From assembly GCA_902792555.1 (NCBI GenBank), contig CADAZW010000021.1, positions 1 through 59,442 on the forward strand: 59,442 nt of DNA, given 5' to 3'. Under the pieces are notes generated by a model that ran no database searches, had not been told where the DNA came from, and was given only the letters and a program-made list of their open reading frames with translations. The position numbers and the translations under genes are program-made. This document shows, piece after piece, positions 1 through 33,622 of this stretch (positions are counted from its first letter, which is position 1; each line of letters starts with the position of its first letter). Source of the DNA: an uncultured Bacteroidales bacterium (GTDB lineage: Bacteria > Bacteroidota > Bacteroidia > Bacteroidales > Bacteroidaceae).

Positions 1-387
1 TTTTGCGTGATCATTGCCTAAGTTTAATCTAATCCCGTTCAAAAGAGTTTTAATCCCGTGGAAAAATAAACTAATCCCGTGAAGAAAGATTTTAATCCCG
101 TGGAACTGGCGTTTTCCACGGGATTAGATTTCGTTTCAAGGCTTTTAGATTTCGTTTCAAGGCTTTTAGTTTTGATTTCCACGGGACCAAATTACCCTGC
201 ATATTAAATCGTCTGTTTTTCAACTCTCTAACCGAAACAATGCAGGAATGTATGCAAAAAACATTTTATTTTTTATAGGCAATGACACAGATGTTGGCAC
301 AGAGAGAGCATGACTATTTCGCAGAGACCGTAATCTGTGCCAACTGCTATATTGTTGCCTTAATTTTTCAATTTTATTCATAGATCA
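1..387. repeat. 21-bp-period array A and gene-free left edge
   Basis: TAATCCCGT starts at 30, 51, 72 and 93, exactly 21 bp apart. The reverse complement ACGGGATTA follows at 118, with weaker units in register at 139 and 160 and ACGGGA again at 181. The two central units share the same 21-bp text (ATTTCG, CAAGGC, TTTTAG). The rest of the spacer has an 11-bp inverted repeat at 293-303/334-344, just upstream of the first gene. No gene is visible before 388. Confidence 0.85.
293..344. promoter_or_regulatory. 11-bp perfect inverted repeat upstream of the coiled-coil gene
   Basis: GTTGGCACAGA (293-303) and TCTGTGCCAAC (334-344) are perfectly complementary around a 30-nt spacer. The second arm ends 43 bp before the ATG at 388. 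It could be an operator or an mRNA hairpin; the sequence does not decide which. Confidence 0.5.
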
Positions 388-1257
388 ATGGAAGAACAGA
401 GAGATTACATTGCTGAAGCAAAGCGAATTGCAGAAGAAATTAAAGCCACAGAAGAACATATTATGGAGTTATACCGTGAGGAGAAATCCCAGGAGAAGCA
501 CGTGGAAGATTTGAAGGTGCAATACAAGGAAGTCTTCATCAAGGCTAACCTTGACCGTCTCGCTGCTTTTAAGGAAGAGTGCAAAAAACGTTGTGGCAAA
601 GCGAACGAGCAAGTGCAACTGCTGGAAAACGAGAAACATGTGTTACGCCTCCAGCTTAAGAAAGAGATAGACGGTCGCACCTTCAATGACAAGGTGCAGG
701 AGATTTCAAAGAAGTGCAAGAAGATCCGTAAGCTGTACGATACATACTACAACAATTCCATTGCTGATATGGTGGGTATTACCGGTTATGACAGCGACAT
801 TATCCGCGATTTCATCTTCGGCTCCTGGAAAGACAATGCTGAATCAAAGAAAGAGGTGACTATCGAAAATGCGTTTAACCATAGACTGGAGATTCTTGCC
901 GACCCGGCTGACTTCTCTCAGAAGATAACACATTTCAGCGCTGGCGGCCTCGGCGCCTGTGTTTATAATAAGGATGTGACAGTAGCAGAACTTGTACGCT
1001 GCTGGGAATATGATGAGTTCAAGTTCGTTTGTCCCGAATCAGGAGAAACTGCCTTCATCTACCAGTTTGCAGGTCATGTTGGTTCTGGCAGGTATTGGGA
1101 GCTGACCGCCTACTGCCCCGGGAATGGCAAACATTTGCATTATGGAAGCAAGGATGCAAATCCCGTCAGTGTCGGTTGGTCGACACTGAAAGGTATAGCA
1201 GACCCTGTAAGTAGGCAGATACAGAACATCAAGAAAAAAAACGAGTCAGGCAAATAA
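388..1257 (+). CDS. Coiled-coil protein of unknown function
   Basis: This 289-aa protein is not one I recognise. Roughly residues 5-125 are rich in Glu, Lys, Gln and Arg with heptad-like spacing and should form a long coiled coil. The C-terminal part (about 200-270) is globular, with a Cys/His/Trp-containing stretch (FVCPESGE, ELTAYCPGNGKHLHYG) that could bind metal. There is no signal peptide or membrane segment, so it is probably cytoplasmic. It is monocistronic, preceded by an 11-bp inverted repeat that could be an operator, and followed by a hairpin terminator shared with the convergent 157-aa gene. The ATG at 388 is the only sensible start. No function can be assigned. Confidence 0.7.
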   Translation: MEEQRDYIAEAKRIAEEIKATEEHIMELYREEKSQEKHVEDLKVQYKEVFIKANLDRLAAFKEECKKRCGKANEQVQLLENEKHVLRLQLKKEIDGRTFNDKVQEISKKCKKIRKLYDTYYNNSIADMVGITGYDSDIIRDFIFGSWKDNAESKKEVTIENAFNHRLEILADPADFSQKITHFSAGGLGACVYNKDVTVAELVRCWEYDEFKFVCPESGETAFIYQFAGHVGSGRYWELTAYCPGNGKHLHYGSKDANPVSVGWSTLKGIADPVSRQIQNIKKKNESGK

Positions 1258-1418
1258 CGAATAACAGAAAGGCAATAGCATAGAAGTTGACCCAACTTTT
1301 TAATAATTCCTTGGAATCCTCGTGATTTCGAGGAACTAATTTGGGAATGACCAAGCAAAAGACCCGGTGTATCTCTGCCTGAGGTATTTTGATTAGTCTT
1401 AATATATTATAAACATAC

Positions 1419-1450
1419 AAAAAGCGGCCATAATGGGTCGCTTTAATTTT
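1419..1450. terminator. Bidirectional hairpin terminator
   Basis: An AAAGCGgCC arm pairs with GGgtCGCTTT around a short AT loop, with A-rich and T-rich flanks. It separates two convergent genes (coiled-coil protein on +, 157-aa protein on -). Confidence 0.55.
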
Positions 1451-1916
1451 GACTATGATATAGATGTTGCCCCAAATTTTCCCCCAAATAATGTTTTAAA
1501 CATCTACCCACACACTCATTAATAAGTTGTTGCAATCTGTAATAAGTTAAACTTTCAGAGAAAGTATTGTAGCATTTAATAGCAGTGATAAAGACATCCC
1601 CACCAATTGAAACGATATAATCTACATTCCATTGGGTATTGCCACGATTACCTCTTCTCCTTTTGATAATTCTCGTAAGTTGTGAACGATTATTCACAAA
1701 TCTTTCAATTTCTTGCCTTTGCAATACACTTTTGAATTTTATTGTCCCTGACGAGCCTGATTTCATCAAGATTGGGTTGCAATGTTGATTTATTTGGCAT
1801 TCAACTTCCCATCTTCGTGTTTCTGCTTCATCAATGTTATAATGACAAGTCCTCATCAAGAACTCCACGTATTCATCTAATTTTAATGTTACGCTACTAC
1901 TTACATATATTGTCAT
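1443..1916 (-). CDS. Hypothetical protein, second gene of an overlapping pair
   Basis: A 157-aa protein of unknown family. It is mixed alpha/beta in look, with a basic central patch (RIIKRRRGNRGN at about 83-94) that could contact nucleic acid, and no signal peptide. Its ATG overlaps the stop of the upstream 57-aa gene (ATGA), so the two are translationally coupled. The pair is much more AT-rich than the metabolic genes of the window, which suggests acquisition. A small acidic first gene followed by a larger basic second gene is the layout of toxin-antitoxin modules, but I see no diagnostic toxin motif, so this is only a hypothesis. Confidence 0.6.
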   Translation of the reverse strand: MTIYVSSSVTLKLDEYVEFLMRTCHYNIDEAETRRWEVECQINQHCNPILMKSGSSGTIKFKSVLQRQEIERFVNNRSQLTRIIKRRRGNRGNTQWNVDYIVSIGGDVFITAIKCYNTFSESLTYYRLQQLINECVGRCLKHYLGENLGQHLYHSQN

Positions 1917-2086
1917 CTTTTATAGTTCCGTATTTTTTCACTCATCTTATTCATAAATTCCTCAAAAGGAATTGCATTAAGACGAGATACAAGTTCTTCC
2001 GTACTCATACCACCTCTTGCCTTAAATTCTTCTGTAATCAAATCAACTTCCCGCTGTTCTAATTCTGTTAATACAACTTTATCCAT
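1913..2086 (-). CDS. Small acidic protein (57 aa), first gene of an overlapping pair
   Basis: This short frame reads MDKVVLTELEQREVD at its start and ends NKMSEKIRNYKR. It is rich in Glu and mostly helical in appearance. The stop TGA (1913-1915) overlaps the ATG of the downstream 157-aa gene in an ATGA junction, the strongest sign that it is translated. Size, acidity and position resemble an antitoxin or small adaptor, but no DNA-binding motif is obvious. Family unknown. Confidence 0.55.
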   Translation of the reverse strand: MDKVVLTELEQREVDLITEEFKARGGMSTEELVSRLNAIPFEEFMNKMSEKIRNYKR

Positions 2087-2246
2087 AAACTATTTTCGAT
2101 TAAGAGTTCTTATTAATAAACACATTTTCACCACAAAATACAACAGACGTCTGACATTATTACTCTTTAGCTATGGCTATGACCAGGCGAATGGACCGGC
2201 TACTCACGGCCTAGAGGGGGCAAGCTAACGAATAGAGGAGGGGCGC

Positions 2247-2762
2247 CTAGAGTATCAGTTCATAGATGCTGATTGAGAGACTGCGCAATGAGGCCTTTAG
2301 CTCCCCCAAGGGAGTTGAAGGCTTTTTCCATTCTTCGAAACGATAAGCCGAGAGCTTGATGTCCAGGCCATACTCCCTCTTTAACCTCCGGCATACCTTC
2401 CTGAAATAATACCCATGCTGGAACAAGCTCGTTTGACGATGCATTATCTCATCGACGTAAAGATGCACCATCTCATGAATGATGATATTGTCGAGTTCCT
2501 CTTCAACCCACTCTTCTTTGTGTACTATCAGGGGCTTTTTGACAATATAAATAACAGGGGGATATTTTCTCGTACCGCTTAGATAAAGGCCTAGGCCGAA
2601 CGTTTCATCTGCAGCCCTCATGTCACATGGCGGCAGGATGCCGTCAAAATATTTCTCATTGAAATACCCGAACTTGCTCTGGAGATAACTGCTTGTAATC
2701 CTTCTCATTTCAGTAATTATATTGGGGTTGCGCCCATAAACATTGTTGGCTTTTCGTGTCAA
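2247..2762 (-). CDS. SprT-like zinc metalloprotease domain protein (paralogue 1)
   Basis: This 171-aa protein has a SprT-like zincin fold. The active-site helix contains H96-E97-M-V-H100 and the third ligand is probably H116 in FQHGYYFRKVC, followed by the RLKREYGL segment common to the four paralogues here. The N-terminal FNEKYFDGILPPC matches the family's entry motif. SprT/Spartan proteins act on DNA-protein crosslinks in other organisms; whether these small bacterial versions do is not known. It lies 20 bp downstream of paralogue 2 on the same strand and is probably cotranscribed. The next two paralogues are on the other strand. Confidence 0.8.
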   Translation of the reverse strand: MTRKANNVYGRNPNIITEMRRITSSYLQSKFGYFNEKYFDGILPPCDMRAADETFGLGLYLSGTRKYPPVIYIVKKPLIVHKEEWVEEELDNIIIHEMVHLYVDEIMHRQTSLFQHGYYFRKVCRRLKREYGLDIKLSAYRFEEWKKPSTPLGELKASLRSLSISIYELIL

Positions 2763-2782
2763 ACCGCCCCCGGCTTAAAGGC

Positions 2783-3205
2783 TCAATAGAATATCTGCGT
2801 GAAGAACCAAGAGATTCTAGGCGCGTTCTTTGTTTTCCTGAATCCACGGCAATCTACTTTCTCAGAGATATTCAGACCGTGCTCCCTGTTGAACTTGCCT
2901 GACATCTCCTTAAAGGCATCGCCATGCGTCAGCCCGTTGTCTATGTGCTTGTGGGCAAGGAAGTAATGGATCATCTCGTGAATGATCACATTCTTCAAGG
3001 CTTCCTCCTCCCAATCGTAATATACGGAGATGTCCAGCCTCTGGCCTCTCAGCCGGCGTCTGCCGACAATCTTATTGCAACTGAAATAGCCACAGGTGGT
3101 ATAGGATTTCAACAGGCCGAACCTGGGCAGGGGCAGTTCGCTATTGAAATACTCCTCGTTGTATTCCCTAAATTTCTGTTCTATTATCTGCTCTGTTACT
3201 TCCAT
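2783..3205 (-). CDS. SprT-like zinc metalloprotease domain protein (paralogue 2)
   Basis: A 140-aa SprT-like zincin with H76-E77-M-I-H80 and a third His at 94 (GLTHGDAFKE), then KFNREHGL. The protein begins directly with the family motif (EQKFREYNEEYFNSELP), so the ATG at 3205 is a good start. A TACCTTTG -7 box lies only about 8 bp upstream, so the transcript may begin at or next to the start codon. It is the first gene of a leftward pair with paralogue 1. The C-terminus is basic and lacks the Cys residues of long SprT proteins. Confidence 0.8.
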   Translation of the reverse strand: MEVTEQIIEQKFREYNEEYFNSELPLPRFGLLKSYTTCGYFSCNKIVGRRRLRGQRLDISVYYDWEEEALKNVIIHEMIHYFLAHKHIDNGLTHGDAFKEMSGKFNREHGLNISEKVDCRGFRKTKNAPRISWFFTQIFY

Positions 3206-3210
3206 AGCTG

Positions 3211-3447
3211 TGCAAAGGTACAGCTACAGTATTACGCGATGAAATCTGTTATACGTTTTTCTGTGACAACTTCTATAACATTGCCGCTCCTTATGTTGTT
3301 AATATTGAAGATGAAAATGAAATGAAGGTGTCTGATGATATCATGGTCAATAACAATGAAACTACCACCCCTTCAAATAGTGGTACTTATATGGGGACTG
3401 TTACTTCGCAAGACAGCAGAACACCTTCAGCATTCTCTAATTCTTGA
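3211..3447 (+). pseudogene. Possible 5'-truncated gene remnant
   Basis: An open plus-strand frame runs from just after a TAG to the TGA at 3445-3447 and reads like real protein: CKGTATVLRDEICYTFFC, then NFYNIAAPYVVNIED, then a Thr/Ser/Asn-rich tail ending SRTPSAFSNS. No start codon precedes the well-folded part, and the first ATG (3322) would give only 41 residues. It overlaps the promoter region of SprT paralogue 2. I read it as the 3' end of a gene whose front was lost. Family unknown. Confidence 0.35.
3213..3220 (-). promoter_or_regulatory. -7 box for the SprT paralogue 2/1 pair
   Basis: CAAAGGTA on the plus strand reads TACCTTTG, a full match to TAnnTTTG. Its distance to the ATG at 3205 implies a leaderless or nearly leaderless transcript. 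Confidence 0.5.
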
Positions 3448-3629
3448 CAGAAGAGGCAAGAGGCGAGAGCCACCTCCGGACTTGGCTAAATCTCAAATCT
3501 CAAAAATCAACTCCTCTTGACTTGTGCGGCCAGGCAGATTACATTGAGCTGTTGCCGGTGACATGATATATATCGCTTCCAACAGAAAATTTTACATATA
3601 ACAGATTTCACGGGCTCAAATAGGCATGG

Positions 3630-3637
3630 TAATTTTG
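3630..3637 (+). promoter_or_regulatory. -7 box for SprT paralogue 3
   Basis: TAATTTTG matches TAnnTTTG. It overlaps the first in-frame ATG (3626) and so argues for the downstream ATG at 3659 as the true start. Confidence 0.5.
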
Positions 3638-3658
3638 CATTGCTATTCAGAAACTGGT

Positions 3659-4156
3659 ATGAAAGACAAGGATATGAACAAATCAGAGGACTGCAGGATC
3701 ATCCGTAGGGTCAAGTCATCACTGCTCCGGAAATGGTTCTGCGAATACAACGAGCAGCTGTTCGGCTCGACGCTATCGACGTGTAACATATACGTCAGGC
3801 GGTCGTCCGACGGGCTGGGCATGTTTCAGAACTCGAGAGGCAGCCACCCAGCAACTATCTACATCAATGCCATACCGGCGCGTGCAAGCCTGGAGTATTG
3901 GACCGAGGACATGCTCAGGGAGGTTCTGCTCCACGAAATGGTGCACTACTATGTGGAGGAGGTGATCGGCAGGCGCATACTGCTGTTCTGCCACGGGTAT
4001 AAGTTCCGCAAGGTATGCTATAGGCTGAGGAAGAGGTATGGCGTGCGGGTCTTTGTGTCGGGTTACAGATACAAGCCTGTTCCGTCATCGCTCGGCGGAA
4101 AGGTGCTGTGGGGCCTGGGATGGCTGAGGGAACAGGCCTACTGCCTGATAGTGTAG
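3659..4156 (+). CDS. SprT-like zinc metalloprotease domain protein (paralogue 3)
   Basis: A 165-aa SprT-like protein counted from the ATG at 3659, chosen because the promoter box lies between the upstream ATG (3626) and this one. H92-E93-M-V-H96 is the zincin motif and H112 (FCHGYKFRKVCYRLRKRYG) the probable third ligand. It is closest in layout to paralogue 1, sharing HGY.FRKVC.RL.. and the C-terminal PSSLG/PSTPLG element. It is markedly more GC-rich than paralogue 4 beside it, so the copies did not arise from one recent tandem duplication. No signal peptide. Confidence 0.8.
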   Translation: MKDKDMNKSEDCRIIRRVKSSLLRKWFCEYNEQLFGSTLSTCNIYVRRSSDGLGMFQNSRGSHPATIYINAIPARASLEYWTEDMLREVLLHEMVHYYVEEVIGRRILLFCHGYKFRKVCYRLRKRYGVRVFVSGYRYKPVPSSLGGKVLWGLGWLREQAYCLIV

Positions 4157-4171
4157 GTCAATAACCGTTGG

Positions 4172-4277
4172 TAATTGATAATTGATAATTGACAATTGAT
4201 AATTGATAATTAGCCAAGTCCGAAGAAACCACTAACCCCGTTAGGAGTCGCGAACCGAAGCAGCTGGTGGCTGCTTA
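4172..4277. repeat. TAATTGA heptamer run and a GC-hairpin element
   Basis: About six copies of a TAATTGA/CAATTGA heptamer (4172-4212) are followed by AGTCCG and a GC-rich stretch with GTCGCGAACC and an AGCAGC/GGCTGCT hairpin. Similar text recurs in other spacers of the window. Confidence 0.6.
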
Positions 4278-4316
4278 AACATATTTGCTTTTTTCAGGTC
4301 ATAGTCATATATATAT

Positions 4317-4324
4317 TATATTTG
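4317..4324 (+). promoter_or_regulatory. -7 box for SprT paralogue 4
   Basis: TATATTTG fits TAnnTTTG and lies about 50 bp before the TTG start at 4375. Confidence 0.45.
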
Positions 4325-4374
4325 CGCAGAACAGAATATTTATTACAATCACTAAAAAGGGAAGAAAATTAACA

Positions 4375-4818
4375 TTGAATGTAGATGGTACGGAACTCAC
4401 GAAAGCAGATTTAAAAGAAAGGTTTGACAAATACAATAAGATGTATTTTGATGGCAAGTTGGGTAAATGTGGGTTATATTGGATGTCTCCCAAACAAAAT
4501 AACTACGGGAAGTACGTAGACCAACCATCACCAAATGGTATAATCAGCAAAATTGGTGTTGCACGAAACACAATATGGACTGAAGAGAATCTTAGAAAGT
4601 TATTAGTCTACGAAATGATTCATATGTATATCAGGACAATAGAAGGGAAAAAGTTAGACGGCGTTATTGGTCACGGCAGGCGTTTCAGGGCACATTGCAA
4701 ACGCCTCAGAAAAGAATATGGATTGAACATACGAATTCACGGTGATTTTGGATATATAAACAAAAAACTCTACCCTAAATTATGGGATAGAGTCTTAACT
4801 TGGTTAATTAATTGGTAA
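4375..4818 (+). CDS. SprT-like protein with altered active site (paralogue 4)
   Basis: A 147-aa relative of the three neighbouring SprT-like proteins: FDKYNKMYFDGKLG near the front, HGRRFRAHCKRLRKEYGL near the back. The zincin motif is changed. Where the paralogues have HEM(V/I)H, this one has Y79-E80-M-I-H83, so the first zinc ligand is lost while the Glu, the second His and the later H100 remain. No ATG exists before the conserved core. The TTG at 4375, behind an A-rich stretch and downstream of a TAnnTTTG box, is the best start. It is AT-rich, unlike paralogue 3. It may be a catalytically dead, still-folded protein, for example a binding or regulatory subunit; decay is the alternative, but the frame is intact. 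Confidence 0.7.
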   Translation: MNVDGTELTKADLKERFDKYNKMYFDGKLGKCGLYWMSPKQNNYGKYVDQPSPNGIISKIGVARNTIWTEENLRKLLVYEMIHMYIRTIEGKKLDGVIGHGRRFRAHCKRLRKEYGLNIRIHGDFGYINKKLYPKLWDRVLTWLINW

Positions 4819-4952
4819 AACAATCTTCCATTAATAGGCATTGCCACCGCGTCTTAATATTTGTCCTCTGCGATTCGCTGCCATACCTGTCATAGGGTAG
4901 ACTTATGACTGATCGCGGAGCGCGAAAACAATAAGCAACCTAGATATTACTA

Positions 4953-5480
4953 TTAACTTGGAAGATTCCTGGGGTGGGCATCGGCTGCCAAGACTTTGCC
5001 GGAGGAAGTGTCCTTCAGGAGGACACCGACCTGCGGGAATGAGGCACGGAGCTCCAGCGCCAGCTTCATGAGTGTCTCAAGATCCACTCCTGCAACGGCA
5101 ACGGAGAGGGAGTCTTCTGCATATCGTCTGCCGCCCCCAGACATATAACGCCCCGCAAGATAATAGCCTATAGTCCAGGCTACGGGCAACGCACTCAGCC
5201 TGCTGCTGACGGCCTCCATCTCTTGGTGCAGACGGCGTGCGAGGCTGTCCTCTGACTGCCCTGCTGCATATATGTCGGTGCTGAGCACTATTATTCCACC
5301 CCCTTTGTCCGATACAACGGGATTGATTCGTTCGCCTGACGAACAGAGGCTTTCCCTGCCGTCTGCTGTCATTGCACTTGCCAAGTACCTGCCCGCCAAA
5401 TACGGTCCTCCGTCAGTACCGTTATAGATTTCATAAAGCGGTTCGCCGCCAAGACAGATTTGCTTGTTTGTGTGTTTCAT
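4953..5480 (-). CDS. Hypothetical protein with two YLAGRY motifs
   Basis: A 175-aa protein I do not recognise. YLAGRY occurs twice (about residues 27-32 and 107-112), suggesting an internal duplication of a roughly 80-residue unit. The start (KHTNKQICLGGEPLYEIYNG) has no signal peptide. The composition is Ala/Gly/Ser/Leu-rich. It stands alone between SprT paralogue 4 and the BspA-like gene. No promoter is clear. Confidence 0.55.
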   Translation of the reverse strand: MKHTNKQICLGGEPLYEIYNGTDGGPYLAGRYLASAMTADGRESLCSSGERINPVVSDKGGGIIVLSTDIYAAGQSEDSLARRLHQEMEAVSSRLSALPVAWTIGYYLAGRYMSGGGRRYAEDSLSVAVAGVDLETLMKLALELRASFPQVGVLLKDTSSGKVLAADAHPRNLPS

Positions 5481-5690
5481 CTTTATTTTCGCGCTTCGCG
5501 CTTTCGCTGCGCGGTTTACCGTTTACTGTTTATTGCGCTTCGCGCTTTGTCGTGATTCAAGAGATTTCACAATTGGACAACTTAATCTTGTTCAGTCATT
5601 AGTCCCCACTAACCGCTAAACCCTAAACCTCAAATCGCTAAATCTCAAATAATAACGGTTTTCGTTATCGTTTTCGTTAACTTGTTTTCC

Positions 5691-6002
5691 TTAACTGTCT
5701 GTCAGTCTGTCACAGCCAAAGAAGGCATATTCTCCTATCTCCTTTACTGAATTGGGGATGGTGATGCCGGTCAGGGCCGTGCAGCCGTCAAAGGTGCAGC
5801 TTTCTATCTCCGTTATCGAATCAGGGAGGGTGACACTGGTCAGGCCCTTGCAGCCAAAGAAGGCATAACTTTCGATGCGAGTCACCGAATTGGGGATAAT
5901 GATGCTTGTCAATTCAGCACAATTAGCGAAGGCTCCTTCCTCAATAACGGTTGTTCCTTCGGGGATGATACCCACTCCGTTCCTTATCTCATATTTTGCC
6001 AT
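5691..6002 (-). CDS. BspA-like leucine-rich-repeat (LRR_5) protein
   Basis: Three to four copies of the 23-residue LRR_5/BspA repeat are visible: IPNSVTRIESYAFFGCKGL, LPDSITEIESCTFDGCTAL and IPNSVKEIGEYAFFGCDRL, after a capping IPEGTTVIEEGAFANC. The family is used for surface adhesion in oral and gut Bacteroidetes, but this 103-aa copy has no signal peptide and is very short, so it may be cytoplasmic or a fragment of a longer array. An earlier ATG at 6059 overlaps a CAAAAGTA (TACTTTTG) -7 box at 6057-6064, so I place the start at the ATG at 6002 (MAKYEIRNGVG). Confidence 0.75.
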   Translation of the reverse strand: MAKYEIRNGVGIIPEGTTVIEEGAFANCAELTSIIIPNSVTRIESYAFFGCKGLTSVTLPDSITEIESCTFDGCTALTGITIPNSVKEIGEYAFFGCDRLTDS

Positions 6003-6056
6003 AGGCCAACAAGCGATTGCCTCTACATCGCGAGGTTTTATATCGTTTTTCGGGTG

Positions 6057-6064
6057 CAAAAGTA
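6057..6064 (-). promoter_or_regulatory. -7 box for the BspA-like gene
   Basis: TACTTTTG on the minus strand, a full TAnnTTTG match, about 55 bp before the ATG at 6002. Confidence 0.5.
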
Positions 6065-6561
6065 TGACGGGGATACGACATACGCGAATCTGTTATACGT
6101 TTATTTTAACGAAAACAGGTTAACGAAAACCGTTATTATTTGAGATTTGAGGTTTAGGCTAAAGCCAAGTTACTTCACGATTTGACGATTTAACCAAGTC
6201 CGGAGGAAGAACCAATAACCGTTAAACGTTAACCAAGTCCGGAGGTTGAGATAAACAAACACAAATCTGTCGTATTAAACAAATATTTTTTCAAGAATTG
6301 GAGAACAAATTCTTCAATTAATAGTCAGATCCGCGAGATCCGTTAGATCTGTGTTTTTTAACCACGGATTATTCGGATTGAACGGATAAGTATAACGATA
6401 ACAAAAACGAAAAATAATTTACAATTTCACAAGTTACAAATTACAATTTATATACAATTTGGCTATTTACGCCTAAGTTAACGAAAACAAAAACAAAAAC
6501 ACGTTTTCGTTAAATTAGTCGGATTCGTGGTCGGTAATAAAGACGAAAAATGATGAGATGC
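6065..6561. other. Gene-free AT-rich spacer
   Basis: No credible gene. It holds short recurring phrases seen elsewhere in the window: AACGAAAAC runs, two copies of CCAAGTCCGGAGG (about 6184 and 6234), and GAGATTTGAGGTTTAGG followed by GCTAAAGCC. Confidence 0.6.
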
Positions 6562-6743
6562 CTATGCATCTAGGCAACCTCGTATGGCGCTGAGGGCATC
6601 ATCGGGGAGGCGATAGCTGAGAGTGCCGTTGTCGCGGAGCTCCATAAGCAGGCGACCGAGAAGGTTGGGGCCGACGAAGGTGTCGCCCTGACGCTTGACG
6701 CCCCAGGCATCGGCATGGCGTTTGCTGAAGGAGGACTGCTGCT
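6562..6743 (-). pseudogene. Out-of-frame continuation behind the sigma/macro gene
   Basis: Directly after the stop of the sigma/macro fusion, a third minus-strand frame reads like protein (SSFSKRHADAWGVKRQ, then GDTFVGPNLLGRLLMELRD, then LSYRLPDDALSAIRGCLDA) and stops at 6562-6564. The frame opens after a TGA inside the macro domain and offers no ATG, GTG or TTG before this stretch. It could be a C-terminal extension separated by a frameshift, a gene with a non-canonical start, or a remnant. An overlapping ATG frame here is Arg/Cys/Pro-rich and looks spurious. Confidence 0.35.
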
Positions 6744-7838
6744 TTACCAGCCTGAGGGCAGCATGATGTTCTCTGCGCCATGGGCATTGCGGAAGAGGGG
6801 CGCTATGTCCTCATCGTTGAAGCCGGCAATGCCGCACCCTATTCTGGTTACAAGGAATGTGAGTTGCCTGTTTTGCCCGGCGAACCGGATAAACTCATCG
6901 ACATAGGGCTTGATTTTCTCCACACCGCCCTGCATGGTAGGAATGGCATAGCTCTGGCCTTGCAGGCCGACGCCCTGGCCCATCACAGCACCAAACCTGC
7001 GGTATGCGTCATATGCCGCTCCACCGCCATGAATACCGCGCAGATTGCTGCCAAACACGAAGATCTCGTTCGGCGCGAGCTTCCAGATGTATTCGGGCGT
7101 AGAGAGTTGCCTTTCCCGGCTCTTCTCGAAGAGTATCCGTGAAAATCGGACATCGCCTGCAGGTATCGGAGGTTCGAGTGCGAGATAATCTCCTGCAGCG
7201 GGAGCGAGACCGACGCTGTCGGCATCCATTACCTCCGGCATGTCGAAGTCCATGTCAAAGTTTTCCTTGAAATATGGTATGACGTATTTTTCTTTCAAAT
7301 GGTTGTAGCGCTGTGATATTGCCGCCGGGGTCACGCCCATCTGCGCGGCCACGTCCTTTGACTTGAAGCCGTTGACCAGCAGCATTACCAATATGGCTCT
7401 CGACATCCTGTCAAGTCTTGCCGTGTCGCATATATCCAACACCATCTTGTTGAAATTGAGCCTCAGATCCTGGCCCGTGTCGAAGGTCTGGATATACTCG
7501 TCGAAGGTCAGCGACCCGTATTCGCGCTTATACCATTTCAGCGCATCGAGCACGATATAGCGGAATCCGTTTATCATCCATGTGCGCAGCGACACCTTGG
7601 GCGAACGGTCTTCCAGCGGTTTCCAGTCGTGTTCTATCAGATAGATGGCGTATTGGTGGGCAAGCGACATGAAGTCCAGATTCTCTTTGGAACTGAGTGT
7701 ATACTTCTTGTCAAAGATGTTGTATGCCACCCGGCTATACTCGTAGAAATAATGCCGGAACATCCATTGGTCACCCCTGCGGAAACCTTCTATTATTTCT
7801 TGCTCGCTATACATTCCACCGTTTTTTTCTGACTGCAA
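6744..7838 (-). CDS. Sigma-70-like factor fused to a macro-type domain
   Basis: A 364-aa protein with two unrelated halves. Residues ~10-195 resemble an ECF-type sigma factor: an N-terminal helical region (EQEIIEGFRRGDQWMFRHYF) and a region-4 helix-turn-helix (FKSKDVAAQMGVTPAAISQR). Residues ~250-364 look like the macro-domain-like family of phage protein A1S_2505: NEIFVFGSNLRGIHGGGAAY, GQSYAIPTMQGG, and TRIGCGIAGFNDEDIAPLF. Macro folds bind ADP-ribose. The architecture suggests transcription control responsive to ADP-ribose or a derivative, which is inference. A TAATTTTG box lies at 7847-7854. The promoter faces away from the divergent vWA gene. Two starts are possible (residue 1 or M9). Confidence 0.75.
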   Translation of the reverse strand: MQSEKNGGMYSEQEIIEGFRRGDQWMFRHYFYEYSRVAYNIFDKKYTLSSKENLDFMSLAHQYAIYLIEHDWKPLEDRSPKVSLRTWMINGFRYIVLDALKWYKREYGSLTFDEYIQTFDTGQDLRLNFNKMVLDICDTARLDRMSRAILVMLLVNGFKSKDVAAQMGVTPAAISQRYNHLKEKYVIPYFKENFDMDFDMPEVMDADSVGLAPAAGDYLALEPPIPAGDVRFSRILFEKSRERQLSTPEYIWKLAPNEIFVFGSNLRGIHGGGAAYDAYRRFGAVMGQGVGLQGQSYAIPTMQGGVEKIKPYVDEFIRFAGQNRQLTFLVTRIGCGIAGFNDEDIAPLFRNAHGAENIMLPSGW

Positions 7839-7846
7839 TCGGAGTA

Positions 7847-7854
7847 CAAAATTA
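7847..7854 (-). promoter_or_regulatory. -7 box for the sigma/macro gene
   Basis: CAAAATTA reads TAATTTTG on the minus strand. It is only about 9 bp from the first ATG, which favours the second in-frame ATG (M9) or a very short leader. Confidence 0.4.
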
Positions 7855-7869
7855 AAAAAAATATCTGGG

Positions 7870-7899
7870 TTGCTTAATTTTTCCTCAGATATATCTTTA
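7870..7899 (+). promoter_or_regulatory. Promoter of the vWA gene
   Basis: TTG (7870-7872), 19 bp, then TATCTTTA (7892-7899), one base off TAnnTTTG; about 56 bp before the ATG at 7956. Confidence 0.45.
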
Positions 7900-7955
7900 A
7901 AGAGGTAAAGAGTGTTGCAAACTTTTATCTATCATCATCTAAATCGAAGCAAAAA

Positions 7956-8579
7956 ATGAAAAAGGTATTCAATTTGATTATCGTTGACGAGAGTGGTTCG
8001 ATGTCTGTTATCCGCAAGCAGGCATTTGCCGGAATGAATGAGACGCTATCTACCGTCAGGAGCATGCAGGACCAGTATCCTGACACGGAGCAGCGGGTGA
8101 CCCTGGTAACCTTCGACAGTGAGCATATGAAGTGGCACTACGACAATGCCGAAGCCAAGCAGACCGAGAATCTGAAGTGGGGAGCCTATAATCCCTGCGC
8201 TGCGACCCCGCTGTATGACACCATCGGCAAATCGGTGTCGAAGCTCAACGCCATGGTTGACGAAGGCGACAACGTGCTGGTGACCATCATCACTGACGGC
8301 GAGGAAAACTGTTCACAGGAATGGTCGCTGCAGATGGTCAACAAGCTTATCGGGAAACTGAAGGAGCATGGTTGGACCTTCACCCTCATCGGCACCGACA
8401 ACCTCGATGTTGAGAGCATGGCCCACTCCATGTGCATTGACGAGCACTTGAAGTTTTGCGAAGATGCCGCCGGCACGGATGAGATGTTCTTGAAGGAGCG
8501 CAAGGCGCGTGTCCGCTTCAACTGCTGTGTTGCTGGAAACATAGCCATGAAGAAAGGAAGCTTCTTCAGCGAAGAGTAA
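7956..8579 (+). CDS. von Willebrand factor A domain protein
   Basis: A 207-aa cytoplasmic vWA-only protein. The MIDAS metal site is complete: D11-E-S13-G-S15 at the start (IIVDESGSMSVIRKQAF), a Thr in CAATPLYDTI, and the later VTIITDGEEN. Family members bind partners through a divalent metal and often sit beside AAA+ ATPases or in phage and stress operons. No such ATPase is next to this one. It is transcribed alone, diverging from the sigma/macro gene, and ends in a strong bidirectional terminator. Confidence 0.85.
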   Translation: MKKVFNLIIVDESGSMSVIRKQAFAGMNETLSTVRSMQDQYPDTEQRVTLVTFDSEHMKWHYDNAEAKQTENLKWGAYNPCAATPLYDTIGKSVSKLNAMVDEGDNVLVTIITDGEENCSQEWSLQMVNKLIGKLKEHGWTFTLIGTDNLDVESMAHSMCIDEHLKFCEDAAGTDEMFLKERKARVRFNCCVAGNIAMKKGSFFSEE

Positions 8580-8601
8580 GCCCTGCCTTGTCAACCCGCA
8601 T

Positions 8602-8633
8602 TGAAAGCCGCACCAAGCATGCGGCTTTCATTG
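8602..8633. terminator. Bidirectional terminator between vWA and HD genes
   Basis: TGAAAGCCGCA (8602-8612) pairs perfectly with TGCGGCTTTCA (8620-8630) around a 7-nt loop and is followed by T-rich sequence. It serves the convergent genes and overlaps the stop of the HD gene. Confidence 0.8.
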
Positions 8634-9128
8634 TTGGGTGGCATGCACTTTATACCATTCCTTATAGTCAGGGTTGGCAACGAGCCTTGCACCCTGATGG
8701 GTGGCCATACGCTTTGGCAACGGCATGACATGGATACGCAGGAGATCCATCCTGTCCGCATCGAAGCAGATGTTTATTGTGGCATCGTCAGTCTTGTGGC
8801 ATACGGTATGCAGTTCACATGCTTTCTTGAGCTTAGCTATCTGCTCATCGCTGAATCCTGACAGCAATGTGTCGCGGATGGTGTCAATGAGCTTTGAAGC
8901 CCTCTTGCCGTGGTCAATGTCTTCGTTGTTGTCCAGCCTTTCGGAGTCATGGAGATAGGCAAAGGCTTTGATAACATCCATATCTGCTCCGTCCTGATAA
9001 AGAATCTGACCGAATTTGCATACTCTGTCCCAATGGTCTATGCCATGGGTACGTCCCATATACTCAGGCCACCTCTGGATGGCAAAGCGTCTCAGTTCGT
9101 CAAGGTTAAAGGATTCTGCTTCTTTCAT
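8628..9128 (-). CDS. HD-domain phosphohydrolase
   Basis: A 166-aa HD-superfamily protein. The metal site is visible as H32 (HGIDHWDRV), H60-D61 (AYLHDSERL) and a later Asp (CFDADRMDLLRI). Members hydrolyse phosphate esters of nucleotides, often as 5'-nucleotidases or dNTPases, but this sequence does not show the substrate. It is the last gene of a leftward group with a metallophosphoesterase 91 bp upstream. Its stop lies inside the shared terminator. Confidence 0.85.
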   Translation of the reverse strand: MKEAESFNLDELRRFAIQRWPEYMGRTHGIDHWDRVCKFGQILYQDGADMDVIKAFAYLHDSERLDNNEDIDHGKRASKLIDTIRDTLLSGFSDEQIAKLKKACELHTVCHKTDDATINICFDADRMDLLRIHVMPLPKRMATHQGARLVANPDYKEWYKVHATQQ

Positions 9129-9219
9129 TGATACTTATACTCATTTTAGTTTTATCACATCGCTCCATCTGGTGGTAGGGTTATTGCAATTTTACCACCC
9201 GGATTATCATTCCAAATAG

Positions 9220-9786
9220 TCAGAGCATAAACAGACGTGGTTTCCTGACCAGTCTGTTCATGTCATCAAGCAGCGCTGCATTGGAAAAGATGATGCCGTC
9301 CTGTTTTAATATGCCATATCCGTCATGGGCATGACCAAAAAGGTGATAACGTGGCTTTACCTCCATAATGCGATTGCGCAATGGAGCATTACCCCAATGG
9401 GTACCCGCGGAATTATCAAGTATCATCACGGGTGGTTCGTGGGTAATAACCACATCTGTATTGCCAGGAATAAGGCCCTCCTGATGATTGTAAGCAAGGC
9501 CATAGAACTGAACTCCATCTATTTCTACACCGCAGTCCTGAAGAAAGTGAACATTTTCAGGCAAGTCCTCGATACCTTCTGCATCCCATAGACATAGATC
9601 ATGGTTTCCTGTAACGAAAATCTTATGGTTATAAGACAGTTCTATGAACCAGTTCAGGAAATCGAGCACCTCACCCTCCGTGCCATTATGGCTAATATCA
9701 CCACTATGAATGATAATATCAGCCTCTGGCATATCCTTTATCCTATGATGTAAGCCGTGGGTATCAGAGATGTGTAGTATTTTCAT
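9220..9786 (-). CDS. Calcineurin-like metallophosphoesterase
   Basis: A 188-aa metallophosphoesterase with all core motifs in order: SDTHG (D8, H10), IHSGDISHNG, TGNHD, ITHEPP and GHAHDGYG. The two-metal centre hydrolyses phosphomono- or phosphodiesters; it is similar in size to the MPPED2/YfcE class. It is soluble. It lies 37 bp downstream of the beta-CASP hydrolase and upstream of the HD gene, so three phosphoester hydrolases follow one another. Confidence 0.88.
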   Translation of the reverse strand: MKILHISDTHGLHHRIKDMPEADIIIHSGDISHNGTEGEVLDFLNWFIELSYNHKIFVTGNHDLCLWDAEGIEDLPENVHFLQDCGVEIDGVQFYGLAYNHQEGLIPGNTDVVITHEPPVMILDNSAGTHWGNAPLRNRIMEVKPRYHLFGHAHDGYGILKQDGIIFSNAALLDDMNRLVRKPRLFML

Positions 9787-9823
9787 TCGTGTGAAACAAC
9801 TTTTGTGTCACCATCTGCCGTCT

Positions 9824-11080
9824 TTACACAGAAGGCACCAGCGACATGGAATCACCGTCGTTCAAAACAATAATGGACCATTCGTCACTGAAGAACTTGG
9901 CAAAACCTTCAGGGTTATCCGTATGGATAGGGACAATTCCCCTAGGATGCAACAATCGGAAAATCTCACGCAGGTCTGTCATATCAATATGCCCACTAGT
10001 GTGCATATAATCAAAATCCACATCCAGCGATTTAGCCAGATTTTCGTTATATGCATCTGAACCTTCCTTGACATAGCCGTTCCACATAGAAAGGACCTTC
10101 TTTTTCTCCCCCGGTATTTGATCTATCAATTTATCAAAGCGTGGGCTAGGGCGAGCAATTAGTACATATCCATATCTGCCAAGAGCATCCTTGAAACTGT
10201 CTGAAACAAAGACGCTGTTCCTGTCAGACAAGTCACGCATCAGGGGCTTGGGCCCATGTTTCCCATATTGAAACAATTTCGATTTAGTCCATATCGAACC
10301 GCTATTAACGACAGTATCCATCACTTTCTTCTGATATCCGTCCACATAGAAGGCACGATGAGCCCTTTGGGCTGCCTGATAGAGGGAGAACAATCTGTCA
10401 ATGTTGGTCGATGACAGATAGACAACACATCCTTTATTGTCTCTGAACAATGTTTCAAAATCCTTTTGAAGCCTGTACTCTTTCATACTTGCGGCCTTGG
10501 GGCGTGAGACATTTGTACCTTCACAAACGACATAATCTACCTCGCCCACATATCTCTTTAGCATCTCAGAAGTCTTACCACTTCTGAAACCATGTAAGCG
10601 GAAATCGCCAGTGTGATAGACTGAGACTCCATCTGCGACAATCTTGAAAGCGTAAGCATCGAAAGCAGAATGGTCAACAGTTACAGGCACTATGGTAAAT
10701 GGACCGAACTTAAATACTTCGTGCTCCTTAAATGTGTTGACATCATCAAGGCGTTCAAGCATCACCTTATGAGCATCAATTCTATATTTTAGATGATCGG
10801 ATAATACTCTTTGAATGTCTCGTCCCACCTTACCCATATAGATAGGCAGTTCTTTTGGCAACTTAATAATACTGCCTATATGATCGCCATGATAGTGCGT
10901 GATGAGTAATGCACTCTTGGATAGGTCGCCATGAGTCAAACCCTCGACTTGCAAATCCCCAGTCTTTGGACCACCAGGTAGTTCTTCGCCATAATCGACG
11001 AACAAACGCCAGCCATCACATTCGTATTCTGTGACGCAACCACCTATCTGGTGAGTGCCGCGATGGATTTTAATGTTCAT
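9824..11080 (-). CDS. MBL-fold hydrolase, beta-CASP / RNase J-like
   Basis: A 418-aa metallo-beta-lactamase-fold protein. The signature THYHGDHIGS gives H62, H64, D66 and H67; VDHSAFDAYAF, YHTGDFRLHG and the late HTSGHIDMTDL and VPIHTDN complete motifs typical of beta-CASP nucleases such as RNase J. It is shorter than RNase J (about 550 aa) and lacks its C-terminal domain, so this is an accessory, probably RNA- or DNA-cleaving, member. Its ATG lies 11 bp inside the end of the upstream PD-(D/E)XK-like gene, which implies coupled translation. Confidence 0.82.
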   Translation of the reverse strand: MNIKIHRGTHQIGGCVTEYECDGWRLFVDYGEELPGGPKTGDLQVEGLTHGDLSKSALLITHYHGDHIGSIIKLPKELPIYMGKVGRDIQRVLSDHLKYRIDAHKVMLERLDDVNTFKEHEVFKFGPFTIVPVTVDHSAFDAYAFKIVADGVSVYHTGDFRLHGFRSGKTSEMLKRYVGEVDYVVCEGTNVSRPKAASMKEYRLQKDFETLFRDNKGCVVYLSSTNIDRLFSLYQAAQRAHRAFYVDGYQKKVMDTVVNSGSIWTKSKLFQYGKHGPKPLMRDLSDRNSVFVSDSFKDALGRYGYVLIARPSPRFDKLIDQIPGEKKKVLSMWNGYVKEGSDAYNENLAKSLDVDFDYMHTSGHIDMTDLREIFRLLHPRGIVPIHTDNPEGFAKFFSDEWSIIVLNDGDSMSLVPSV

Positions 11081-12152
11081 AAAATTGTATCTTATTGCTA
11101 GATCCTAATTTGTATTTTGTCTTTCCGAATTCAACATTTACTGAATATATTTCTCTTGGATATTCATTTAAAATATGGATAATTTCCTTGTTATCAATTA
11201 AAGGATGATACACGTTTGCCAACATATTGGCTCTTATTTTAGTATAATTCTTAATATTGTCATAGAAGCAATCTTCATTCTTGTTGGGAGTATAATCAGG
11301 CCTAGCAATAAAACCGGTTATCATATCTCGCATTATGCACGAATACATAAAGAGTTCAGATATGACACCTACTTTTATGTTCTTACTCTTTTTGTTTTTA
11401 GGAATATATTTAAGTTCTATAATTGTCAGGGTCTCGCTTTTTGCGCCCCACAAATCTATTGCAGACAAACCACTTGTAAAAAACTTCTTTTTATTTTTCT
11501 TAACTCCAACAGGAAATTGCCTATCTATAAAATCTAAATCGTACTCCTTTATAATATAGCTAGAGAGATTTGACGAAAGTAAATACTCAACAGATGTCTC
11601 GCTTAAGTTATCAAAATCTCCCTTGGGCTCAGGAATCTTGGAAAAGTTATTATTTTGTAAGCTATGTAGCTCTCTTTTGAACTTCTCTACTTCATCGATG
11701 TTACTCTTTGAAACAGAGAACCACGGGTATTGTTCAGAAAACCTTAGAACACGATATAGAAAGCGACGATAATGACACCATTTATTGTCATTTTTCTCAA
11801 TACCATGCGGTATATCCCATTTAAGTTCAACGGATTCGATAATACTTGGCAGCCATGCTTTGAGACATATTGCCCATCCTTCAAACGCAGCATTGTCAGT
11901 CTGCATATTTTTACATGTCGCATTTAAGATAATCTCTTCTCCATCGCATATTCCCTTTTGCTCCTCTATATTGAGAAGTAATTTCTTATCTTTTTGAATT
12001 TTGAAGGAAATATATTTGGGTAAGATAATTCTTCTTAATCTTCCAGATTCTGCTTGGACGTGTTTACGAAGAGGTTCTATAAATGTTTTCTTTTCATATT
12101 TTGATTGAGTTTCTGACTTCTTGTATTCCTTAATTTTTGTTTTTTGTGCCAT
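11070..12152 (-). CDS. PD-(D/E)XK nuclease-like protein of unknown family
   Basis: A 360-aa protein, strongly AT-rich and Lys/Ile/Asn-rich compared with its neighbours, suggesting recent transfer. No family is recognised by name, but D233 in GLSAIDLWGAKSE and E246-L-K248 in TLTIIELKYIPK form the Asp...Glu-X-Lys arrangement of PD-(D/E)XK nucleases, as in restriction and repair enzymes. The N-terminal half is basic and may bind nucleic acid. The 11-bp overlap with the beta-CASP gene ties the two together as a likely two-nuclease unit. A substrate cannot be inferred. Confidence 0.6.
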   Translation of the reverse strand: MAQKTKIKEYKKSETQSKYEKKTFIEPLRKHVQAESGRLRRIILPKYISFKIQKDKKLLLNIEEQKGICDGEEIILNATCKNMQTDNAAFEGWAICLKAWLPSIIESVELKWDIPHGIEKNDNKWCHYRRFLYRVLRFSEQYPWFSVSKSNIDEVEKFKRELHSLQNNNFSKIPEPKGDFDNLSETSVEYLLSSNLSSYIIKEYDLDFIDRQFPVGVKKNKKKFFTSGLSAIDLWGAKSETLTIIELKYIPKNKKSKNIKVGVISELFMYSCIMRDMITGFIARPDYTPNKNEDCFYDNIKNYTKIRANMLANVYHPLIDNKEIIHILNEYPREIYSVNVEFGKTKYKLGSSNKIQFYEH

Positions 12153-12234
12153 ATTTTGAAATTTTAAAGTTTTACATTCTTGTTATTCTCCATCACATCC
12201 AGGTTGGAGTGATCTCCCATATTCTTCAGTCTCG

Positions 12235-12489
12235 TTATTCTTCTTCATCCAGATCGACATCGGTTGGCAGATTGTAGTCCTCTAGCAGGTTCCACCCCCA
12301 GCCACAGTCGGAACACGTAATGTATCCATCTTCGTCGCCCATCGTGTTGCTTGAACCACAATTTGTGCAACAAGGTGTTCTATAGAGAGCCTCTTCGATT
12401 ACCTCTCTAATCTGCTCTCGAACAGATGCATCGTCGTCGAAAGTGTTCGGTTTCGGAGATTTATTCTTTTTCTTCATATCTGTATCCAA
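12235..12489 (-). CDS. Small zinc-ribbon protein
   Basis: An 84-aa protein with CCTNCGSSNTMGDEDG and ITCSDCGW, two CxxC knuckles about 18 residues apart that form a zinc ribbon, followed by an acidic tail. Such ribbons occur in adaptors binding nucleic acid or RNA polymerase. It is first in the leftward group and has its own promoter. A second possible start (K6) is close behind. Confidence 0.7.
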   Translation of the reverse strand: MDTDMKKKNKSPKPNTFDDDASVREQIREVIEEALYRTPCCTNCGSSNTMGDEDGYITCSDCGWGWNLLEDYNLPTDVDLDEEE

Positions 12490-12561
12490 GTCTTATTCTG
12501 CTTTTCCCATTGCTGCTCTTTGTCAGGCTCTCCGCTATCGTCGGTTTATCAATTCACTCTA

Positions 12562-12591
12562 CAAAGGTAGTTATTTTTGACAACACCCAAA
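12562..12591 (-). promoter_or_regulatory. Promoter of the zinc-ribbon/nuclease group
   Basis: CAAAGGTA (12562-12569) is TACCTTTG on the minus strand; CAAA (12588-12591) is the -33 TTTG with 18 bp between them. Confidence 0.55.
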
Positions 12592-12616
12592 GAAAAAACC
12601 TGAAAATATTAGGAAA

Positions 12617-12703
12617 TGCCGGCAGGAGTCTGAGAGCAAAGCGGCAATGCCGGCAGGCATCGCGAAAAGATCTTTTGCAGTCGGCAAAGCCGAAGTGAAA
12701 CTT
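12617..12703. repeat. Dispersed GC-hairpin element
   Basis: Contains GCCGGCAGGAG, AAAGCGGCAATGCCGGCAGG, CATCGCGA and GTCGGCAAAGCCGAAG. It is one of at least nine intergenic copies of a family built from short GC stems. Confidence 0.6.
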
Positions 12704-12745
12704 GCATGAGCATTTGAACCATTAAGAAACGTTAACTGAAAAAAT

Positions 12746-12776
12746 TTTGTCAATTCAAAGGTTTTGCCTAACTTCG
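12746..12776 (+). promoter_or_regulatory. Possible promoter of the NADAR gene
   Basis: TTTG (12746-12749), 19 bp, then TAACTTCG (12769-12776), one base off TAnnTTTG. Confidence 0.35.
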
Positions 12777-12910
12777 CGCCGATTTTCAGATGGGGAAGCG
12801 CCCCAGGCAAGGAAATCGGCGCCGGCGAGCCGGTGTTTGTGATTTATGCATTAAGAGACGGCCAAGAGCCGCCCCAACCGAGCTTTTCATAATTGGCCAC
12901 GGTGGGAAGA
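12776..12910 (+). promoter_or_regulatory. Inverted-repeat-rich leader of the NADAR gene
   Basis: GCGCCGATTT (12776-12785) pairs perfectly with AAATCGGCGC (12813-12822), enclosing GGGG/CCCC (12792-12795/12801-12804). CCGGC-GA-GCCGG follows at 12822-12833, and GGC/GCC pairs lie further on. The gene starts at 12966. It could be a structured 5' UTR or a set of operator sites. It matches no riboswitch I can name. Confidence 0.45.
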
Positions 12911-12965
12911 CAATGCGAATTAGTGAATATAAAACATTATTAATCAACTAATTAAAAACAAATTT

Positions 12966-13715: not shown

Positions 13716-13733
13716 CACAAGGCCACATAGGGG

Positions 13734-13764: not shown

Positions 13765-13841
13765 TGTGTATTCCAACGGCACATGGGGGCTGACAGTATA
13801 CGCTTACGATTTCTTTTCATCTGTCCTCGTAAGGAGGAATT

Positions 13842-13916
13842 CTTGGAGCCTGCGCAGAAAATCTAAGAGTCTGCGCGTGAAATCTTGGAGCCTGCGCGTG
13901 AAATCTATCTCAGTGG
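13842..13916. repeat. 21-bp-period array B
   Basis: CTGCGC occurs at 13850, 13871 and 13892, each 21 bp apart, inside units of the type AATCTTGGAGC-CTGCGCGTGA. Only one orientation is seen, unlike arrays A, C and D. Confidence 0.75.
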
Positions 13917-13941
13917 GGAAGAGCGCGGGATGCGGTCCATA

Positions 13942-15840: not shown

Positions 15841-15863
15841 AATTGAAAAATAGGAAAATGAAA

Positions 15864-19604: not shown

Positions 19605-19800
19605 AATAAGCGCGAAGAAAAAATCTAATCGCGCCAAACCGAAATCTAATCGCGCCAAACCGAAATCTAATCGCGCCGAAGTCAAAACTAATCGCGCCGA
19701 AGCAGAACACTTCAGCGCGATTAAAAAATTTCTTTACGCAATAAGAACAATTTTCTGCGCAATAAGAAAAATTTTCTGCGGATTCGCGAGACGCGGAATA
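19605..19800. repeat. 21-bp-period array C
   Basis: TAATCGCGCC starts at 19626, 19647, 19668 and 19689, all 21 bp apart; the first two units are identical over 21 bp. The inverted form GCGCGATTA follows at 19715, then in-register variants at 19736 (ACGCAATAA), 19757 (GCGCAATAA) and 19778 (GCGGATTCG). Forward and inverted blocks have four units each. It sits between convergent genes. Confidence 0.9.
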
Positions 19801-33480: not shown

Positions 33481-33622
33481 TAAAAGCGAAAATAAATTTT
33501 CTAATCGCGCGAACAATTTTTCTTATCGCGCAGAAGTTGTCAGTTTCGGCGCGATTAGATTTGACTTCGGCGCGCTCAGAATATACTTCGGTGCGATGAG
33601 TTTTTTATTCTTGCGATTAAAA
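33481..33622. repeat. 21-bp-period array D
   Basis: Forward units start at 33481 (TAAAAGCGA), 33502 (TAATCGCGC) and 33523 (TTATCGCGC); inverted units at 33549 (GCGCGATTA), 33570 (GCGCGCTCA), 33591 (GTGCGATGA) and about 33611 (TTGCGATTA). Spacing is 21 bp within each block (20 for the last). The array ends about 30 bp before the first CRISPR repeat. Confidence 0.88.

Follow-up and report, generated by a model that had tools for sequence, protein, structure and literature searches.

The nearest published relative of the repeat array described here, array A, is BrickBuilt of Porphyromonas gingivalis, a 23-nt direct-repeat minisatellite that resides, in 19 copies, within an IS5-type MITE with GAGACC terminal repeats; whole 23-nt units are gained and lost between strains and stem-loops are predicted (PMC4596501). 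Two further systems are instructive for the way in which they work: BvgA dimers bind at 22-bp intervals along the same face of the helix, spreading from a nucleating site (PMC7250471), and Rep binds plasmid iterons, direct repeats of 17-22 bp, with a helical-phase-dependent cooperativity that is abolished by a half-turn shift (PMC4980987). Finally, repeats of the heptamer TAACTGA are abundant intergenic direct repeats that occur in some Bacteroidetes as well (PMC4679880).

Array A lies near the start of the window, by which we mean the whole 59,442-bp stretch of DNA analyzed, from an uncultured Bacteroidales bacterium. It has in common with BrickBuilt the imperfect tandem units of about two helical turns, the residence in an intergenic MITE of a member of the Bacteroidales, and the predicted stem-loops, and both the intergenic position and the gain and loss of whole units recur here; the 23-nt unit does not, the unit here being 21 bp and, in a minority, 22 bp. 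The present arrays also differ from BrickBuilt in having mirrored arms, a fixed centre, other terminal repeats, and 8-bp target duplications, and many more of them lie outside any detected MITE (PMC4596501). Because unit length, mirror arms, centre, and ends all differ, array A is of the same kind as BrickBuilt, but not a member of it. The likeness to BvgA arrays appears to be one of working and not of family, those being promoter sites of one regulator, whereas here hundreds of units lie between genes (PMC7250471). The same holds for iterons, from which the present arrays differ in being chromosomal and dispersed, with mirrored arms and cores that vary between arrays (PMC4980987); an iteron array is unlikely because the arrays are dispersed and intergenic. 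Although 21 is three times 7, the heptamer repeats have a period of 7 and no mirror arms (PMC4679880). No description of mirror-image 21-bp arrays was found in the literature searched, the scope of which left out most subscription journals; the statement of the first-pass annotation that no element with such a layout had been described nonetheless overlooked the BrickBuilt minisatellite MITE, and array A itself is MITE cargo.

Array A and the element around it

In array A, the core TAATCCCGT starts at positions 30, 51, 72, and 93, a step of 21 bp, and the inverted core ACGGGATTA occupies positions 118-126, bearing out the 21-bp row with a mid-point inversion that had been recognized by the first-pass annotation. 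Its further claim, that the inverted block mirrors the forward block, stands insofar as the inverted units are in register, but two of the four carry a different core (AGGCTTTTA at 139 and 160; the unit at 181 reads ACGGGACCA). The self-match of the array (best 120-bp window within positions 1-233) is 0.64 at lag 21 versus 0.33-0.41 at lags 19, 20, 22, and 23.

Table 1. Repeat arrays and associated features of the window
Feature	Position	Strand	Remarks
MITE-like element, right part, holding array A	1..359		left end beyond contig end
Array A, four forward and four inverted in-register units	30..189		seen in sequence
Centre hairpin of array A, predicted 15-pair stem, loop of 8 on plus strand	91..128		terminator-like on both strands
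Right terminal inverted repeat, GGCAACAATATAGCAGTTGGCACAGATTA on minus strand	331..359	-	
Array D, short direct 21-bp array, core GCCTGCGCGTG	13837..13906	+	
Array B, five forward and three inverted units, core TAATCGCGC	19607..19765		between convergent genes
Array C, two forward and three inverted units, core TAATCGCGC	33502..33599		adjoins CRISPR array
7-bp-unit arrays	20533-20704, 27789-27856, 32174-32233, 45458-45589, 46079-46206, 47156-47240		

The design had been said to recur three more times in the window (Table 1). Arrays B and C do consist of two mirrored arms, but array D is a direct array in which no inverted arm was seen. A CRISPR-like array with a 77-bp period, the repeats of which come to within about 50 bp of array C, is followed by Cas1 (34604-35548) and a Cas9-like gene with HNH and RuvC_III (35545-39213), both on the minus strand; this locus spans positions 33653-39213. 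The window also contains numerous 7-bp tandem arrays with varied units (ATTTGAA, CTCCTAA, GGTTAGC, AGGAGTT, ATAACCA, and ATAATTG), the 21-bp period being three times their unit length, as well as a SAM-I/IV riboswitch (12843-12957; Rfam RF01725, 54.5 bits) directly before a gene that matches NADAR weakly. Between positions 1270 and 1460, AGGCAATAGCATAGAAGTTGACCC and GATATAGATGTTGCCCC resemble the MITE terminal repeat, which suggests another related short element.

As judged from its sequence, array A is the cargo of a multicopy, 421-492-bp MITE-like element with terminal inverted repeats, the left end of which is missing because the window starts, at a contig end, inside a copy. Positions 1-400 have 52 BLAST matches in the own draft genome, many of them at contig ends. 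The copies with both flanks (C7, C46, and C2, as well as C55, in which one end is degenerate) span GGTAATGATATAGATGTTGGCACAGATTA to its inverted counterpart, with lengths, obtained by subtraction of end coordinates, of 492 bp for C7, 480 bp for C46, and 421 bp for C2. An 8-bp target duplication is perfect in two of these four flanked copies, C2 (AAAAGTTT) and C46 (AAAATTGT), and no perfect 8-bp duplication was read in the flanks of C7. Terminal-repeat sites with at most two mismatches number 45 in the own draft genome, compared to 0 in the control; the termini read GGYAAYRATATAGMWGTTGGCACAGATTA, and the GAGACC start of the IS5 type was not encountered. The element has the hallmarks of a MITE, being short and multicopy, with terminal inverted repeats and a target duplication and without an internal transposase gene. 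The copies vary in their cargo: C2 has one more 21-bp unit in the right arm, the left arm of C55 is about one unit shorter, and C46 and a copy in the congener G016 carry another set of cores. Other 21-bp arrays, with cores of their own, surround or directly adjoin the copies C46 (L012) and C7 and C55 (L010/L013).

Duplications of 8 bp are a trait of IS1595. They hint at an IS1595 parentage of the element, which the search for the transposase did not support: PF12762 is absent from the own genome (G000) and from G016, both incomplete drafts (80.5% and 86% complete, respectively), and has one match in the congener G002. At a candidate autonomous element, the site L045 18406, the genes listed include no obvious transposase. 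A second MITE, considered at arrays L343, L344, and L035, is probably not the explanation of the shared flanks there, which seem to be repeated gene 3' ends with their downstream DNA. A further short repeat family is represented by an 82-bp stretch upstream of an array (L034 2447-2528), with many matches of at least 90% in G016.

The array family in the genome and in its relatives

We counted periodic regions in a 451,672-bp sample made up of the window and 20 stretches on low-numbered contigs of the own genome, among which C2, C3, and C6 were previously known to contain matches, leaving out regions with strong matches at lags 1-14. There are 29 regions with lag 21 (a few of them coding), compared to 6 at lag 22, 3 at lag 18, 2 each at lags 15 and 16, 1 each at lags 24, 26, and 27, and none at lags 17, 19, 20, 23, 25, 28, or 29; the periodicity of array A is not due to chance. 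The pattern TAATCGCGN{3,33}TAATCGCG matches the own genome 174 times and its reversed control 0 times, and all TAATCGCG pairs among the matches listed are spaced 21 or 22 bp apart, with 11-41 bp permitted. A profile scan of 741,454 bp of own DNA yielded 47 arrays with 305 units, and no chain in the reversed sequence. The first 451,672 bp contain 26 of these arrays, corresponding to about 130 per genome if this sample is typical; the total of 47 does not represent a density because the other 16 stretches were picked from contigs with known core matches.

The spacing of the units is nearly invariant. In the 224 pairs of neighboring units, it is 21 bp in 205, 22 bp in 18, and 19 bp in 1, and never 20 or 23 bp, under a procedure that permits chain steps of 19-23 bp and penalizes steps other than 21. 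Chains found by the sequence profile are biased toward consensus-like units, and the profile is blind to large length changes. Between the same neighbors, a mean of 6.08 of the 21 positions are mismatched, a divergence of 29%. Most of the 22-bp spacings belong to a sub-group with eight placed arrays, of which five occupy divergent gaps, and in one case (L037), an A-type array passes, as judged by eye, in phase into another unit type. The proposal, made from the window, that phased elements of varying core form a family is hence confirmed across the genome, and the period, the failure of which in more arrays had been named as grounds for abandoning the idea, held there and in two congeners.

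The distribution among relatives is more restricted. The exact TAATCGCG core pair was detected in only two of the 18 other congeners, G016 (38 pairs) and G002 (7 pairs), both of which contain further 21-bp arrays with other cores; one G016 array has two arms with cores that appear, by eye, unrelated. G016 yielded 7 lag-21 regions over 100,000 bp and G002 yielded 6 over 65,496 bp, some of them coding or based on 7-bp repeats, whereas the congeners G013 and G017 have none in 117,901 bp, with one weak region in 40 kb more of G013. Among the 301 genomes of the family, 19 of which represent the genus, the core pair is present in seven, namely, G000, G002, G016, and four of the 282 further genomes. 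Of these four, G225 has two pairs spaced 22 bp, G053 has five spaced 23 bp, and G130 and G253 have one each, spaced 11 and 18 bp, respectively. With the reversed control, 6 matches were obtained in 5 of the 301 genomes. Absence from related genomes, which the first-pass annotation would have taken as evidence against the family, was accordingly observed in part: 16 of the 18 congeners lack the core pair, but arrays of other sequence with a period of 21-23 bp and no open frame are found in the family.

The latter arrays come from a sample of 645,901 bp, drawn in 40 stretches from the genomes of 34 other family members, of which six belong to the genus. At lags 15-26, regions free of open frames occur in this sample at 21 (2), 22 (6), and 23 (2) only; longer lags include 42 (2), 44 (1), and 46 (2), possibly multiples, and one each at 27, 36, 53, and 54. 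Three of the ten regions (L378, L380, and L381) are from stretches chosen for the TAATCGCG pair, so that the unselected stretches contribute seven of seven at 21-23, or ten of ten with the selected ones added. By eye, the seven share no common core, and two are from congeners (L376 and L388). Although the sample is small, the non-coding arrays of the family therefore tend to two helical turns, whatever their letters. The open-frame-free lags in G002 and G016 together are spread more widely, with 21 (9), 42 (4), 16 (2), and one each at 18, 19, 20, 32, 33, 36, and 58. Lag-21 regions occur at random loci, too (a set from which L123, which appears to be identical to G016, was removed), mostly with an open frame, and for this reason, the later counts were restricted to stretches without one. 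In core-pair scans of genome and viral contigs, the matches listed are mostly single, with scattered spacing, and from unrelated organisms; among them, L093, L132, and L183 have 21- or 22-bp arrays of their own, for which the pattern itself selects.

Orthologous loci were compared using parts of G016 with 26 arrays and parts of G000 with 53. Both flanks matched at five loci, one of which, the two-unit chain L338 14001-14042, was dropped as likely coding. The array is shared at two of the remaining four; at the other two, G016 has a short array that is different in one case and no array in the other. The first shared array, located beside a putative aspS gene, has arms of unequal length in the two species, with a difference of 21 bp on the left and 23 bp on the right. 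It lies within a patch of about 750 bp (L067 13201-13950 in G016, versus L350 in G000) that is about 97% identical, array included, compared to 83-84% in the 2.5-kb flanks outside the patch and mostly 77-91% in genes, as if the patch had been recently exchanged or were under constraint. The sole length change in the second shared array is exactly 42 bp; this array is 82.6% identical, with 94.2% (139 bp) and 97.5% (160 bp) in the immediate flanks and 88% in a 2.4-kb gene flank. Shared arrays differ between species by about whole units.

Architecture and genomic context of the arrays

The arrays are composed of two arms facing inward at a fixed centre. Among the 47 array groups, 25 are forward-then-inverted, 2 consist of a forward chain followed by two inverted ones, 19 run in one direction only (for instance, L031, with nine units versus none), and a single longer group is mixed, starting with an inverted chain. 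In the 28 adjacent pairs of a forward and an inverted chain, the centre is the same within one base in 25, one whole unit off in 2, and off in 1. An opposed unit is present on the centre side of 71 of the 81 arms versus the outer side of 7 of 81. With each of these 71 centre-side units placed at the highest score found over 70 bases, all of them keep, to within one base, to the same register modulo 21. The identity of the 9-base core to the canonical core declines with rank from the centre, from 0.92 (n = 56) through 0.83, 0.85, and 0.74 to 0.69 at rank 5 (n = 12); identity over whole units follows no such trend with rank (0.65, 0.70, 0.75, 0.69, and 0.65).

All 47 arrays lie outside predicted genes, given a 30-bp tolerance and a simple hexamer gene finder made for this analysis. 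The 43 arrays that could be placed comprise 17 in convergent, 15 in tandem, and 11 in divergent gaps, compared to 15, 119, and 30, respectively, for array-free gaps of at least 120 bp. Counted by arrays, not by gaps, the odds ratio relative to tandem gaps is 9.0 (p 1e-6) for convergent and 2.9 (p 0.02) for divergent placement. Among gaps of 120-1500 bp, arrays are present in 16 of the 27 convergent, 10 of the 40 divergent, and 13 of the 130 tandem ones. The arrays are, then, enriched between convergent genes, but the enrichment alone does not prove a role because array gaps are longer and insertions into operons may be counter-selected.

Explanations of the phased arrays and their meaning

Because the spacing is fixed, the rows can be suggested to represent docking tracks for a putative protein, and we tentatively favor, without considering it probable, the reading that each is a phased protein-docking array nucleated at its centre. 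A cooperative putative protein would occupy one side of the helix, at one unit for every two turns, starting at the centre and spreading outward along both arms; the bound protein would impose the spacing lock while tolerating drift of the cores and, at the boundaries of transcription units, might insulate transcription or supercoiling. Such a cooperative, sequence-tolerant track would presumably need a kept period, a fixed dyad, best-kept cores beside the dyad, and two-turn sites. What is observed includes the period, the mirror polarity, the fixed centre, and a spacing that is locked amid drift, along with whole-unit differences between species, the intergenic position, the enrichment at convergent ends, and the MITE context. 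Also in favor of the track are the better-kept cores near the centre, the second shared array, which is less conserved than its immediate flanks but has changed in length by exactly 42 bp, and the seven of seven unselected family regions at 21-23; BvgA and the Rep-iteron system set precedents for this mode of working (PMC7250471, PMC4980987). Several observations count against the docking track. The whole-unit gradient is missing, and the arms are unequal or one-sided, 19 of the 47 groups running in one direction only; tandem duplication of an ancestral unit preserves a period without selection; among MITE copies, array and backbone diverge equally (0.079 versus 0.079; 91 pairs); the core pair is restricted to 3 of the 19 congeneric genomes; and there is no array-specific drift at the first shared array, since the array and its surroundings are alike at about 97% identity. 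A functional role is less likely for array A than for the stand-alone arrays because array A is carried along by the MITE.

Somewhat unlikely, in our estimate, is that the arrays are functionless minisatellites, in which an ancestral mirror-image pair was duplicated in tandem and spread by recombination between arrays and by MITEs, so that the period is simply the inherited unit length. This would account for the capture by MITEs and is consistent with the differences of about one unit among the MITE copies, with the whole-unit steps that separate the species at the two shared loci (arm differences of 21 bp on the left and 23 bp on the right at the first, and 42 bp at the second), with the fate of the other two comparable loci, where G016 has no array or a different short one, with the apparent in-phase passage of L037 into another unit type, and with the turnover of whole BrickBuilt units between strains (PMC4596501). 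Yet off-period steps are nearly absent at 29% divergence of neighboring units, family arrays with no common core keep a period of 21-23 bp, and neither the graded core conservation nor the convergent enrichment is predicted, although tolerance of insertions at gene 3' ends could yield the latter.

An explanation by bidirectional transcription terminators, each with a GC-rich centre hairpin, a T-rich arm on each strand, and additional units that provide repeated chances, strikes us as unlikely. The 60-mers at the centre do fold, with a mean z of -4.25 on both strands of 25 arrays, and terminator-like sites are predicted at the centre of array A on both strands and in array B on one (positions 1-20000 of the window). 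Overall, 34 of the 47 arrays have such a site on at least one strand and 10 on both, compared to 3 on the plus strand, 3 on the minus strand, and 1 on both after one block shuffle per array, and to 7 of 400 random windows with sites on both strands. In unit orientation, A exceeds T in 70 of the 81 arms, and the preference for convergent over tandem gaps is in the expected direction. Terminator-like sites are also more frequent in gaps with arrays than in those without, both divergent (8 of 10 versus 9 of 30) and tandem (12 of 13 versus 36 of 117), the array gaps being longer as well. However, convergent gaps without arrays have such sites equally often (9 of 11 versus 14 of 16 with arrays), tandem gaps show no bias toward the direction of the upstream gene (6 versus 6 of 13), the presence of arrays in a quarter of the divergent gaps is unexpected for terminators, and the 21-bp lock is left unexplained. 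Nor do the arms favor their own partner in pairing: the native combination has a mean rank of 13.7 of 25, the swapped combinations being on average more stable (mean energy -50.5 versus -41.7 for native), and the complementarity of mirrored 21-bp shells drops with distance from the centre (0.70 innermost, then 0.51, 0.45, and 0.41). For these two reasons, a long RNA or DNA hairpin between the arms was rejected beyond the centre, and the suggestion in the first-pass annotation of a folding element survives for the centre hairpin only.

An origin as REP/REPIN-type elements spread by a RAYT transposase, for which the short, intergenic, many-copy, lineage-specific, and inverted-pair character would speak, was rejected as highly improbable, given that the Y1 transposase (Y1_Tnp; PF01797) has no match in G000 and G016, which are richest in core pairs (drafts 80.5% and 86% complete), and occurs instead in G002, with few core pairs, and in three genomes without any, and that period-locked direct arrays are, to our knowledge, not a REP trait.

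The docking-track reading could be extended to a period-locked, sequence-fluid chromosomal element, a proposal that we consider rather unlikely: dyad-seeded mirror tracks would mark the boundaries of opposed transcription units, the spacing would be read over the letters, cores would drift and be swapped within the genus while the geometry persists, and MITEs would scatter finished tracks. If a bound protein locks the spacing, the arrays would constitute an undescribed class of Bacteroidales chromosomal boundary element, conserved in geometry rather than in sequence, and would provide a direct route to isolating the protein. If they are only a minisatellite, it would still hold that the non-coding arrays of this family tend to two helical turns, that MITEs capture and multiply such arrays, and that the MITE-multiplied copies coincide with contig ends in this draft genome.
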